Shown piece by piece: positions 10,018 through 15,804 of a stretch of DNA of 64,000 bases. A program made the translations under genes and the position numbers. Source of the DNA: Fodinicola acaciae. GTDB lineage: Bacteria > Actinomycetota > Actinomycetes > Mycobacteriales > HKI-0501. Within the stretch, counting starts at the first letter, position 1. Each line of letters starts with the position of its first letter. Location: the NCBI RefSeq assembly GCF_010993745.1, contig NZ_WOTN01000003.1, forward strand, positions 1,736,001 through 1,800,000, given 5' to 3'. The notes below the pieces were generated by a model. That model did not search any database. It saw only the letters and a program-made list of their open reading frames with translations, and was not told where the DNA came from.

Positions 10018-11688
<1,671 letters not shown>

Positions 11689-11781
11689 TCAGGCTGCGTC
11701 TGCTGGCTGGTTTCCACGGCCGGGCCCGATGCCCGCGACGGACGAGTCCACTTGCCGACCCTCACCGCCCCGACCTACGTG

Positions 11782-11808
11782 TTGGCACTCGTCGACACCG
11801 AGTGCCAA
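11782..11808. promoter_or_regulatory. CIRCE operator 1 (HrcA site)
   Basis: TTGGCACTC, a 9-base spacer and GAGTGCCAA form a perfect inverted repeat matching the CIRCE pattern TTAGCACTC-N9-GAGTGCTAA in layout and nearly in sequence. It lies about 130 bases upstream of groEL. Confidence 0.88.
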
Positions 11809-11816
11809 CCCAAGGT

Positions 11817-11843
11817 TTAGCACTCTCGGCCCGAGAGTGCAAG
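11817..11843. promoter_or_regulatory. CIRCE operator 2 (HrcA site)
   Basis: TTAGCACTC-N9-GAGTGCAAG: the left arm is the exact CIRCE consensus and the right arm differs at two outer bases. It lies 8 bases from operator 1, so HrcA could bind both cooperatively (inference). Confidence 0.85.
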
Positions 11844-11859
11844 AAAGCGGCTGTCGATC

Positions 11860-12266
11860 GGCCTCGGCGGCGAGCTGGCCGGCGGACAGCGGCCCATGCC
11901 GGGCGCGGGGGCTCGCGTACGCGGTGGTCTGGAGCGCGATGGTGAGGATCGAGATGCCGGCGGTGAGCACCGAGGAGATCACGACATTTGACGAACACCT
12001 CGCCGTGCTCGAAGAGCAGCACCGGCACCAGCACGAGATACGACAGGTAGAGGTAGAGGCTGGGAAGGACACACAGCATCAGGCCGATGGCGACCCAGCA
12101 GGCCGAACAGGACGAACCAGCGGATCGCGACCGGCAGACGAGAGGCTGTCGCCAACACCGGGCCCGCGCCGCGATTGACCGCGACCACCAACCTCCCTGG
12201 TCGGTGGCGATCAGCGGATCACCCGGACCGCCGTACGCCGGGCTGGCCGTAGCCGTAGCTGGTCAT
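11860..12266 (-). pseudogene. Degraded paralogue of the adjacent membrane gene
   Basis: A start ATG at 12266 with GGGGAG upstream opens MTSYGYGQPG but hits a stop after 14 codons. Shifting frames recovers PGDPLIATDQGGWWSR, then VLATASRLP...WFVLFGLL, then [17 protein letters not shown]...LLFEHGE, then [38 protein letters not shown]. Each piece matches, in order, the intact neighbour at 12298-13185 (NDPLVAGDYSGWWSR; ALVFGALAFVGFIACVVPGL; VLAAAIGLLTYPLQVVAYATLRGRRTPVSTAQL). At least three frame changes and two internal deletions are needed. It is therefore the wreck of a tandem duplicate, and its dead 3' end runs up to the CIRCE sites. Confidence 0.75.
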
Positions 12267-12297
12267 GCCTTGCTCCCCCGTGGCCGACAGTCGCCGG

Positions 12298-13185
12298 TTA
12301 CGGCTGGCTCAGCTCCTGGACCAGCTGCGCCGTGGAGACGGGCGTGCGGCGGCCGCGCAGGGTCGCGTACGCGACGACCTGCAACGGATACGTGAGCAGC
12401 CCGATCGCCGCGGCCAACACCGCGCTGACCAGCGTCGCGAGGATCGTGCCGCCGATCAGCGCACCGGTGCTCCGCGCGACCACGGCCCCGACGCCGGCCA
12501 CGCCGCCGAGGCAGCCGGCGATCAGCGAGGCGACCAGGCTGAGGCCGTAGATGGTCGCGGCGAAGCCCAGCGCCAGGCCGAAGTTCTGGTTGAACAGCGA
12601 GAAGGCGCGGCTGAGCGGGTTGTCCCGCTCGAAGGCCACGACCGACGGCAGCAGCAGCGAGACCAGTCCGACGTACAGGCCGGGCACGACGCAGGCGATG
12701 AAGCCGACGAAGGCCAGCGCGCCGAAGACCAGGGCCCAGAGCACGATGTGCGGCATCCGCCGAGCGGCGCGCTGGAGGGCGACCCCGAGCGCCGGCCGCT
12801 CGTTGGCCGCCGCCATCGCCACCAGGTGTACGGCGACCAGGCCGATGACCGAGCCGATCACGGCCGTCACGACGGTGGCGGCCAGCTGCAGGAGGCTCGA
12901 CCCGAGCTGGAAGCCGGGGTTGGCGGTGCCGCGGCCGGTCAGGTCGATGCTGGTCAGCCGCCACACCGAGATCGGGGTGACCAGCAGCAGGGTGAGTACG
13001 ACGAGCGCGATCTCCAGCACCAGGATCTGCTGCCAGGTGCGCTTGGCCAGTTCCAGGCCGCGGCTCCACCAACCGCTGTAGTCACCGGCCACCAGCGGGT
13101 CGTTGGGATCGGACAGGCCGGGGCCTGGATAGTGCGCGTACGGATCGCCACTCGGCGGTTCCTCTGGCGGACGCTGGTCGGACAT
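12298..13185 (-). CDS. Multi-pass membrane protein (GDPD-membrane-domain-like)
   Basis: This 295-residue protein has a Pro-rich cytosolic N-terminus (PPEEPPSGDPYAHYPGPG) and about six transmembrane helices. It contains the VVPGLYVGL...FERDNPLSRAF pattern of the membrane domain found in glycerophosphodiester-phosphodiesterase-like proteins and related actinobacterial proteins. No phosphodiesterase domain is attached. The start at 13185 is chosen because GGGGAG is 6 bases upstream; the ATG two codons earlier abuts that site. Function is unknown. A broken copy lies immediately downstream. Confidence 0.7.
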   Translation of the reverse strand: MSDQRPPEEPPSGDPYAHYPGPGLSDPNDPLVAGDYSGWWSRGLELAKRTWQQILVLEIALVVLTLLLVTPISVWRLTSIDLTGRGTANPGFQLGSSLLQLAATVVTAVIGSVIGLVAVHLVAMAAANERPALGVALQRAARRMPHIVLWALVFGALAFVGFIACVVPGLYVGLVSLLLPSVVAFERDNPLSRAFSLFNQNFGLALGFAATIYGLSLVASLIAGCLGGVAGVGAVVARSTGALIGGTILATLVSAVLAAAIGLLTYPLQVVAYATLRGRRTPVSTAQLVQELSQP

Positions 13186-13286
13186 CGCCATCTCCCCGTT
13201 CGGGTCGTCGACAGGTGTGGACGCACAACCTATCGGCCGGCACCGACAGCCGCCGCCGGTTGGAAAGAAGTGGCCAGCTGATGCAA

Positions 13287-13322
13287 CAGGACCCGTCCCG
13301 CCGGAGCGGAGAACGGGTCCTG
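13287..13322. terminator. Hairpin between csp and the membrane gene
   Basis: CAGGACCCGT and ACGGGTCCTG form a perfect 10-base inverted repeat around a 16-base loop, just downstream of the cold-shock gene. It lacks a T-run, as is common in actinomycetes, and would block read-through into the membrane gene. Confidence 0.6.
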
Positions 13323-13363
13323 GTCATGCAGGGTCTTTGTCGTCGGGCTAGGCAGCCAGCTGG

Positions 13364-13567
13364 CTAGCCGACGACATGGACCGCCTCGGCCTGCGGGCCC
13401 TTCTGGCCCTGGGTCACCTCGAACTCGACGCGCTGGCCGTCCTCGAGCGACTTGTAGCCGTCCATCTGGATGGCGGAGAAGTGGACGAACACGTCCTGGC
13501 CGCCATCGACGGCAATGAAGCCGTAGCCCTTTTCAGCGTTGAACCACTTGACGGTTCCCTGTGCCAC
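13364..13567 (-). CDS. Cold-shock protein, CspA family
   Basis: The 67-residue protein is a single OB-fold cold-shock domain with both nucleic-acid-binding motifs, KGYGFI (RNP1) and VFVHF (RNP2). It binds single-stranded RNA/DNA and acts as an RNA chaperone. The GTG start at 13567 gives the family length and has GGAAGG 5 bases upstream; an ATG five codons earlier is less likely. In Streptomyces I recall csp lying between groEL2 and thrC, as here. Confidence 0.93.
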
Positions 13568-14309
13568 TGGAGCCTTCCTCACTGCTGGTGCGACAGGTCA
13601 CGCCCTACTGCGAGACCCGGGTCTTCGTCCGTATAGCCGTGGGAGACCCGCCCGGCAGGTTGAGCACGATCTGGCTAGAACTACGACCGATCGGAACGCT
13701 ACACGACATCCGGCCCGCTGGGGATGCCCTCTGCGCCGGAAATATTCTTCGACAGCCACCACCGGCCGCGACCGACAAACCGGCGATTACCGCAGGTGAT
13801 CGCCGTTGTGATTACGTTGCGTGAAATCCGTGGCGATGCCTCGGTCACCGCGACTTCGGCGGAGGTTTTCCTTTGTGCTAACGACAGGTTGCCGGCCAGC
13901 GTACGGTCCGACCGGAATCCCACCACCCAACGACCACCGGACGCGACCGGCGTTCGCACCTGAATACCGCTCCAGATCAGCCAAAATGCAAGTGCGCGCC
14001 AGTCGCAGGCCGGCACCGCGGAGCGGTTGCGACAAAACCCACTCAAGCGGGCTTTCCCGACTCCGCACCACAAAGACCAAGTTTTCTTGACCATCGACCG
14101 AGATTACGCGGAGCGACCGCCGCGGCCTGTCCGACTGGTCAGGATCGGCCCGGTTCCGATGCCGAAACTACGTGCAGCGAATCTGAGTTCACCGGCAAAA
14201 TTTGGTCCCTGGCAACAACAAAGCGACCGCCCCGGACCAGACCTGTGCGGTTTTTGCACCTTTTGCACACATCTTTGGATCCGCAGCGGCCGCTCGGCGT
14301 TGAATCCGT
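13568..14309. other. Gene-free region between csp and thrC
   Basis: About 740 bases with lower GC than the surroundings. The first ~150 bases are probably the csp leader and promoter. A 131-codon minus-strand frame (13699-14094) and short plus-strand frames show no protein family, no credible start and no actinobacterial codon bias. In Streptomyces I recall a small MoaD/ThiS-like gene next to thrC; I see no trace of it here. Confidence 0.5.
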
Positions 14310-15557
14310 TCAGTCGATCAGGCCGGCCTCGGCCGCCGATTTCAGCGACGGCTTGATCCGGTGGGTGGGGCTCACGTCGAGCACCTCGGCGGTCTTCAGG
14401 CCCTCGCCGGTGTTGTAGACCACCGTCTCCTGCGAGGTGTCGATCAGGCCGTCCTTGACCAGCTTCGCCAGGCACGAGACGGTCACTCCGCCGGCCGTCT
14501 CGGCGAAGACGCCGGTCGTACGCGCCAGCAGTGAAATGCCTTCGCGGATGTCGTCGTCATCGGCCACCGCGATCGAGCCACCGGTCCGCCGCACCGCGTC
14601 CAGCACGTACGGCCCGTCGGCCGGGTTGCCGATGTTGAGGCTCTTGGCGATGCCGGTCGGCCGCACCGGCCGTACGACGTCGTGACCGGCCTGGAAGGCC
14701 TCGTAGACCGGCGAGCAGCCCAGCGACTGCGCGCCGAAGACCTTCCACGGGGTGTCCTCGACCAGGCCGATCCTGACCAGCTCACCGAAAGCCTTGTCGA
14801 TCTTGGTGAGCAGCGAGCCGGAGGCGATCGGGATGACCACCTGCGCCGGCAGCTTCCAGCCGAGCTGCTCGGCGACCTCGTAGCCGAGCGTCTTGGAACC
14901 CTCGGCGTAGTAGGGCCGCACGTTCTGGTTGACGAACGCGGTCTTCTCGAACTCGTCGGTCTCGCCGAGCTCGCTGGTCAGCCGGTTGACGTCGTCGTAC
15001 GACCCGTCGACGGCGACCAGCCGCGGCGCGTACACCGAGCTGGCGACGACCTTCATGGCCTCCAGGTCGGACGGGATGAACACGGTCGCCTGCCAGCCGA
15101 CCCTGGCCGCGTGCGCGGCCACCGAGTTGGCCAGGTTGCCGGTGGACGCGCAGGCCACCGAGGTGTAGCCGAGGCCCTTGGCGGCGGTCATCGCCATCGA
15201 CACCACGCGGTCCTTGAAGGCGTGCGTGGGGTTGCCGCTGTCGTCCTTGACCCACAGCGGCGCGGTGAAGCCGAGCTCGGCTCCGAGCCGGTCGGCCCGC
15301 ACCAGCTTGGTCATGCCGGGGTTGAGGCTGGCCCGGCTGTCCGGGTCCTGGCCGACCGGCAGCAGCGGCGCGTACCGCCAGATGTTCTGCGGACCGGCCT
15401 CGATCTGCTCGCGGGTGACCGCGGACAACGTCGCCTGGTCGTAGCCGACCTCCAGTGGGCCGAAACACTCGGCACAGGCATGGATGGCGATCAGGGGATA
15501 TTCGGCGCCACAGTTGCGACAACGCAGACAGCTGGCCGGGGACGGCGCGACGGTCAA
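14310..15557 (-). CDS. thrC: Threonine synthase
   Basis: This 415-residue PLP enzyme converts O-phosphohomoserine to threonine. It has an N-terminal zinc-ribbon-like segment (CLRCRNC...CAEC), the PLP-lysine motif NPTHAFKDR and the STGNLANS phosphate-binding loop. The TTG start at 15557 is set by GAGGAGG 7 bases upstream; longer frames run through the riboswitch and are not coding. The SAM riboswitch directly upstream places its ribosome-binding site next to the P1 stem, so control is probably at translation. Some relatives with this zinc ribbon may use other substrates. Confidence 0.9.
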   Translation of the reverse strand: MTVAPSPASCLRCRNCGAEYPLIAIHACAECFGPLEVGYDQATLSAVTREQIEAGPQNIWRYAPLLPVGQDPDSRASLNPGMTKLVRADRLGAELGFTAPLWVKDDSGNPTHAFKDRVVSMAMTAAKGLGYTSVACASTGNLANSVAAHAARVGWQATVFIPSDLEAMKVVASSVYAPRLVAVDGSYDDVNRLTSELGETDEFEKTAFVNQNVRPYYAEGSKTLGYEVAEQLGWKLPAQVVIPIASGSLLTKIDKAFGELVRIGLVEDTPWKVFGAQSLGCSPVYEAFQAGHDVVRPVRPTGIAKSLNIGNPADGPYVLDAVRRTGGSIAVADDDDIREGISLLARTTGVFAETAGGVTVSCLAKLVKDGLIDTSQETVVYNTGEGLKTAEVLDVSPTHRIKPSLKSAAEAGLID

Positions 15558-15572
15558 AGCAGAGCCTCCTCG

Positions 15573-15689
15573 CTCATCTTTCCCGCTCTCGCGGGCCGGA
15601 GTTGGCACCTGTCCCGCGGTCGACGACGACACGCGCGCGATGGTTGCCGGGGCTTCACCGGGCCGGATCCCTCTGCCCCTCTGGATGAG
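15573..15689 (-). ncRNA. SAM riboswitch (S-box type) upstream of thrC
   Basis: Reading the minus strand, CTCATCCAGAGGGGCAGAGGG, then GGCCCGGTGAAGCCCCGGCAACC, then GGTGCCAACTCC, and finally GCGGGAAAGATGAG reproduce the ordered conserved blocks of the SAM-I/SAM-IV core. The first CTCATC (ending 15689) pairs with the final GATGAG (15573-15578) to make P1. The thrC ribosome-binding site GAGGAGG begins 2 bases after P1, and no terminator stem is evident, which suggests SAM-controlled ribosome access (inference). Confidence 0.9.
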
Positions 15690-15804
15690 TGCATGTTCAG
15701 TTATGGCTGTGAGCATACGTGGTGGGAGCGGGATCGCGACAACCCCGCGTCCCGCTCTGTGAGCATGCGAACACCACGGCTGACGCGCGAACGCCGTTCG
15801 CGTG

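Follow-up and report, generated by a model that had tools for sequence, protein, structure and literature searches.

The window, the 64,000-nucleotide (64-kb) stretch of Fodinicola acaciae DNA analysed here, carries on its minus strand a gene labelled threonine synthase (thrC; positions 14310–15557). The gene starts with TTG at 15557, has its stop codon at 14310–14312 and encodes a protein of 415 aa that scores 238.6 bits against TIGR00260 (thrC; cut-off 167.1) and contains a PALP domain (PF00291). Judging from the translation, these family matches and the protein tree described below, it can be classed as a metM-type PLP enzyme. No linkage to hom or thrB is seen in the stretch examined, where the neighbours are a cold-shock domain gene (13364–13582, minus strand; PF00313, 106 bits), a groEL recognized by eye and a DUF3558 gene. 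The groEL and cold-shock genes occupy 10018–13582 of the minus strand, downstream of metM. We take this order to be that of SCO4293–SCO4296 in Streptomyces, minus the carrier gene.

A full-length SAM-I (S-box) riboswitch aptamer precedes the gene at 15571–15691 (minus strand, read from 15691 to 15571), and 13 nt separate its 3′ end from the TTG start. In the cmscan search it matches RF00162 over the whole model (1–108 of 108) with 79.6 bits and an E-value of 4.2e-17, the gathering threshold being 44.4 bits; it is the single Rfam match above gathering in the whole window. The first-pass annotation had placed a SAM riboswitch in front of the thrC-labelled gene and had proposed an Infernal scan with a SAM model as the check, and this is what the scan returned. 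The location it gave, 14310–15689, holds, except that the upper end misses two bases of the aptamer. A genome-wide scan found no other RF00162 in the 8.86-Mb genome, so that the copy in the window is the sole match. It should be added that the metM frame is open across the entire aptamer, from 14310 up to an ATG at 15716 (minus strand). Automatic annotation may call a 468-aa protein from this ATG and thereby hide the riboswitch.

The arrangement of riboswitch and gene is conserved. A scan of a genome collection confirmed 244 relatives, and 80 loci of these were kept; 74 of the 80 entered the Rfam scan (L086–L091 were left out). All scanned loci but one (73 of 74; 18/18, 19/20, 19/19 and 17/17 in the successive batches) have RF00162 immediately 5′ of the orthologue, the exception being L047, where none was found. 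In 61 of the 80 loci a gene for a ThiS/MoaD-type sulfur carrier follows 3–549 bp downstream of the gene match. Nearly all of these carriers end in or near GG, and the Streptomyces copy (L073) matches PF02597. Among the 19 loci that have no such carrier, 12 belong to the nearest-relative group (L012–L020, L022–L024) and two more are L040 and L041, all with 4 kb of downstream sequence each; the other five offer just 73–1570 downstream bases, which makes absence less sure there. At L047 (5239–5520) the carrier has no stop and no GG end and reads into a longer frame with an ATPase-like GKGGVGKTT motif, recognized by eye. A Mumia locus has a TPP riboswitch near metM (L084:7668–7775, minus strand).

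How could SAM act on this gene? The leader contains the sequence GAUGAGCGAGGAGGCUCUGCUUUG, in which the Shine-Dalgarno sequence (SD) AGGAGG stands immediately 3′ of the P1 3′ strand GAUGAG, as had been noticed at first pass, where the P1 stem was said to abut the ribosome-binding site. We propose this segment (15560–15578, minus strand) as the expression platform, from the sequence and from computations of SD duplex formation and accessibility. The leaders that were compared number 76 (the 73 loci, the window, L010 and L011; 74 distinct sequences). In 75 of them the start codon follows the aptamer at a distance of 6–19 nt; the first base of the predicted SD falls anywhere from 8 nt within the P1 3′ strand to 3 nt past its end. 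With start codon and SD so near the aptamer there is little space for a terminator, which points to control at the level of translation. Only 32 of the 76 leaders have a TANNNT promoter motif 5′ of the aptamer.

In the accessibility computation, from which L042 was omitted for its distant start (86 nt), the SD is predicted to be less accessible with P1 forced than with the P1 5′ strand open in 48 of 75 leaders, that of the window included, and more accessible in 10. The effect is modest: in a simple folding model that ignores tertiary structure and uses an assumed 16S tail sequence, the median over the 75 leaders is 0.37 with P1 forced and 0.50 with the P1 5′ strand open, and the values for the window leader are 0.30 and 0.48. 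SAM-I switches are OFF switches as a general rule. Taken with the folding predictions this makes an OFF sense likely, and SAM would probably repress the gene through masking of the ribosome-binding site. The opposite sense, which the first-pass annotation had considered, would have SAM free the ribosome-binding site and raise expression of a threonine enzyme. The 10 leaders with higher predicted accessibility agree with it, and a possible pairing in the window leader between GAGC at the P1 end and GCUC after the SD, of ambiguous regulatory sense, may do so too; 24 of 68 leaders have a four-base match of this kind, where shuffling predicts 6.6. This alternative hairpin was nevertheless set aside, for the count of 24 is confounded by the purine-rich SD and by relatedness of the leaders. 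Against the lowered accessibility in most leaders and the general behaviour of SAM-I switches, we consider an ON switch very improbable.

The more difficult question is what the gene product makes. In the first-pass annotation, SAM control of a threonine gene appeared to reverse the expected branch-point logic. In our view the puzzle stems from the gene label. The other suggestion of that annotation, a different role of the enzyme within sulfur metabolism, finds support in the sulfur-carrier synteny, in a separate clade and in the published MetM. It is important to note that TIGR00260 and other family models by themselves do not separate ThrC from MetM activity. In a protein tree of 57 sequences the window protein groups with riboswitch-type proteins, among them both Streptomyces ones, in a clade of 28 members (support 100/99); the Streptomyces orthologues examined are 60% identical to the window protein. 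This clade stands apart from 20 short ThrC proteins (100/100) and from 8 other long ThrC-like proteins (100/99). One very divergent ThrC-like protein, from Streptomyces wuyuanensis (L183, G022:C20:270700-272300), lies outside the short ThrC group on a branch of 3.76. Besides the window protein, the F. acaciae genome encodes a long ThrC-like protein (31% identical) and a short one (35%). The short one scores 295 bits on TIGR00260 and is located at C3:511367, directly after an ORF read by eye as homoserine dehydrogenase (hom). Based on this score and position, we take the short ThrC to be the threonine synthase proper of F. acaciae.

If the gene in the window were nevertheless a true threonine synthase, SAM would repress it so that O-phosphohomoserine or aspartate carbon is spared, opposite to the expected branch-point control. 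The TIGR00260 score above cut-off is in favour of this, as is a related protein from the cyanobacterium Microcystis, 51.6% identical to MetM and encoded beside a metO-like gene, which according to the account in PMC12172450 formed threonine from O-phosphohomoserine in vitro. The Microcystis result means that the chemistry of the MetM clade is not settled everywhere and that some threonine synthase activity is possible. On the other side are the separate short ThrC after the hom-like ORF, the other ThrC-like genes, one or more in each of the 22 genomes searched, the sulfur-carrier gene that follows in most relatives, and the MetM function reported in Streptomyces, as far as PMC12172450 describes it. 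In view of these observations a threonine synthase under SAM repression seems unlikely. Most likely, despite its label, the gene encodes an enzyme of the methionine pathway, and one of a type described only recently.

The carrier that accompanies this enzyme elsewhere, metO, is missing from F. acaciae. The gap where it might be expected (13583–14309, no strand) measures 727 bp. We asked whether a metO had gone unseen there and rejected the idea on the ORF list and on tblastn: with MetO and CysO as queries, neither metO nor a remnant of it was found in the gap or in the whole window (best E-value 0.27). Adjoining metM it is absent from F. acaciae and, over 4 kb downstream, from L012–L020 and L022–L024. 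Elsewhere in the F. acaciae genome no metO was found either, the only MetO/CysO-like match being a CysO-type carrier (L092, G000:C2:1490165-1490437). This carrier, 54% identical, was considered as a displaced metO and rejected, as it sits within a mec-cysO-cysM cluster. The window gene thus reads as encoding an enzyme of the MetM clade that lacks its customary partner, and not as one half of a MetM/MetO pair.

A carrier search over 22 whole genomes gave 39 matches, and for 30 loci the context was determined by motif scanning: 11 adjoin the riboswitch gene (L109–L119) and 19 lie in mec-cysO-cysM clusters (L092, L120–L137). F. acaciae, a genus mate, a family mate, two Klenkia and one Micromonospora have one match each, of the CysO type. 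A second, weaker match (40–46% identical to MetO) is present in two other Micromonospora, Hamadaea, Actinorhabdospora and Phytomonospora (G006:C7:490754, G007:C18:15478, G009:C9:323232, G010:C3:535179 and G011:C5:16888), and in these five metO-less genomes another carrier is possible. Full-length MetX (above 300 bits) was not found in 17 of 25 carrier genomes and MetA was not found in 21 of 22 genomes, which suggests that many of these bacteria need another route to homocysteine, with the reservation that several genomes are drafts in which absence of MetX, MetA or a carrier is not proof.

F. acaciae itself has MetX (NF047917.1, 542 bits) and three strong Cys_Met_Meta_PP matches, so that MetM may be redundant there. 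Could its riboswitch then be a decaying remnant, the genome depending on MetX instead? These proteins and the missing metO would fit such a history. Decay is contradicted by the state of the locus, where the aptamer is complete and the gene intact, and by the full-length RF00162 that scores 76.1 and 82.8 bits in two further family members; we give this explanation hardly any credence. In the metO-less branch (the family of F. acaciae, Geodermatophilaceae and Micromonosporaceae), MetM could have been re-wired to CysO as the source of sulfur, and CysO would then be its sulfur donor in F. acaciae. We offer this tentatively and with somewhat more doubt than belief. If this is true, one carrier feeds cysteine synthesis via CysM and, under SAM control, methionine synthesis via MetM. 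The sharpest case is Micromonospora yasonensis (G005), which has MetM, in which MetX and MetA were not found, and in which CysO is the sole similar carrier found.

Our preferred explanation, to which we assign a probability of about 0.82, is SAM-I feedback on metM as a homocysteine-making ThrC paralogue, with threonine left to the short ThrC. MetM and thiocarboxylated MetO, in the work of Hasebe and colleagues, reportedly convert O-phosphohomoserine to homocysteine. The F. acaciae enzyme would likewise make homocysteine, and through it methionine and SAM, from O-phosphohomoserine with sulfur from the thiocarboxylate of a carrier protein. When SAM is plentiful, its binding would stabilize the aptamer and the P1 stem, P1 would take up RNA that overlaps or touches the SD, and translation would fall. 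When SAM is scarce, P1 would open and the gene would be translated. Threonine would be supplied by the separate short ThrC encoded elsewhere in the genome. With a methionine enzyme behind the riboswitch, SAM regulation that seems backwards becomes ordinary end-product feedback, and the apparent paradox of a SAM-repressed threonine gene is removed. Many actinobacterial genes that are annotated as threonine synthase and have a SAM riboswitch in front probably belong to methionine synthesis as well, and the riboswitch is a good guide to labels that need correcting. The metO-less genomes provide a clean set for asking whether one sulfur carrier serves both cysteine and methionine synthesis.

Regarding known systems, the actinobacterial CysM/CysO/Mec pathway makes cysteine from O-phosphoserine with a PLP enzyme and a carrier thiocarboxylate. 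The proposed reaction shares with it the PLP enzyme acting on a phosphorylated amino acid and the carrier thiocarboxylate, and F. acaciae has the mec-cysO-cysM cluster; the differences are that cysteine is the product there and that the F. acaciae cluster has no SAM-I switch, the genome's only RF00162 being in front of metM. In Streptomyces lividans TK24, an RF00162 leader before SLIV_16930–SLIV_16925 was listed in 2021 under threonine biosynthesis, and 21 of 22 such elements were transcribed (PMC8079986, with the leader in Table 3). RF00162 thus stands in front of a threonine-labelled unit in both organisms, but the unit has two genes in S. lividans and one in F. acaciae. From the synteny of SCO4293/SCO4294, SLIV_16930–SLIV_16925 is presumably the same gene pair as metM and its carrier. 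The closest parallel is the MetM/MetO system of Streptomyces albulus. As outlined in PMC12172450 (citing Hasebe et al. 2024, Appl Environ Microbiol 90:e01247-24), MetM is a newly discovered homocysteine synthase of Streptomyces; a SAM riboswitch lies upstream of its gene, and the carrier gene is metO. What that outline describes has in common with F. acaciae the ThrC-like PLP enzyme and the SAM riboswitch upstream, and the Streptomyces orthologues are in the clade of the window protein; F. acaciae differs in having no metO, either next to metM or elsewhere, in having CysO as its sole similar carrier and in the presence of MetX. To the extent covered by these two sources, the riboswitch–gene pair and its probable resolution are already in print, and what is particular to F. 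acaciae and its nearest relatives is a metM that stands without metO.
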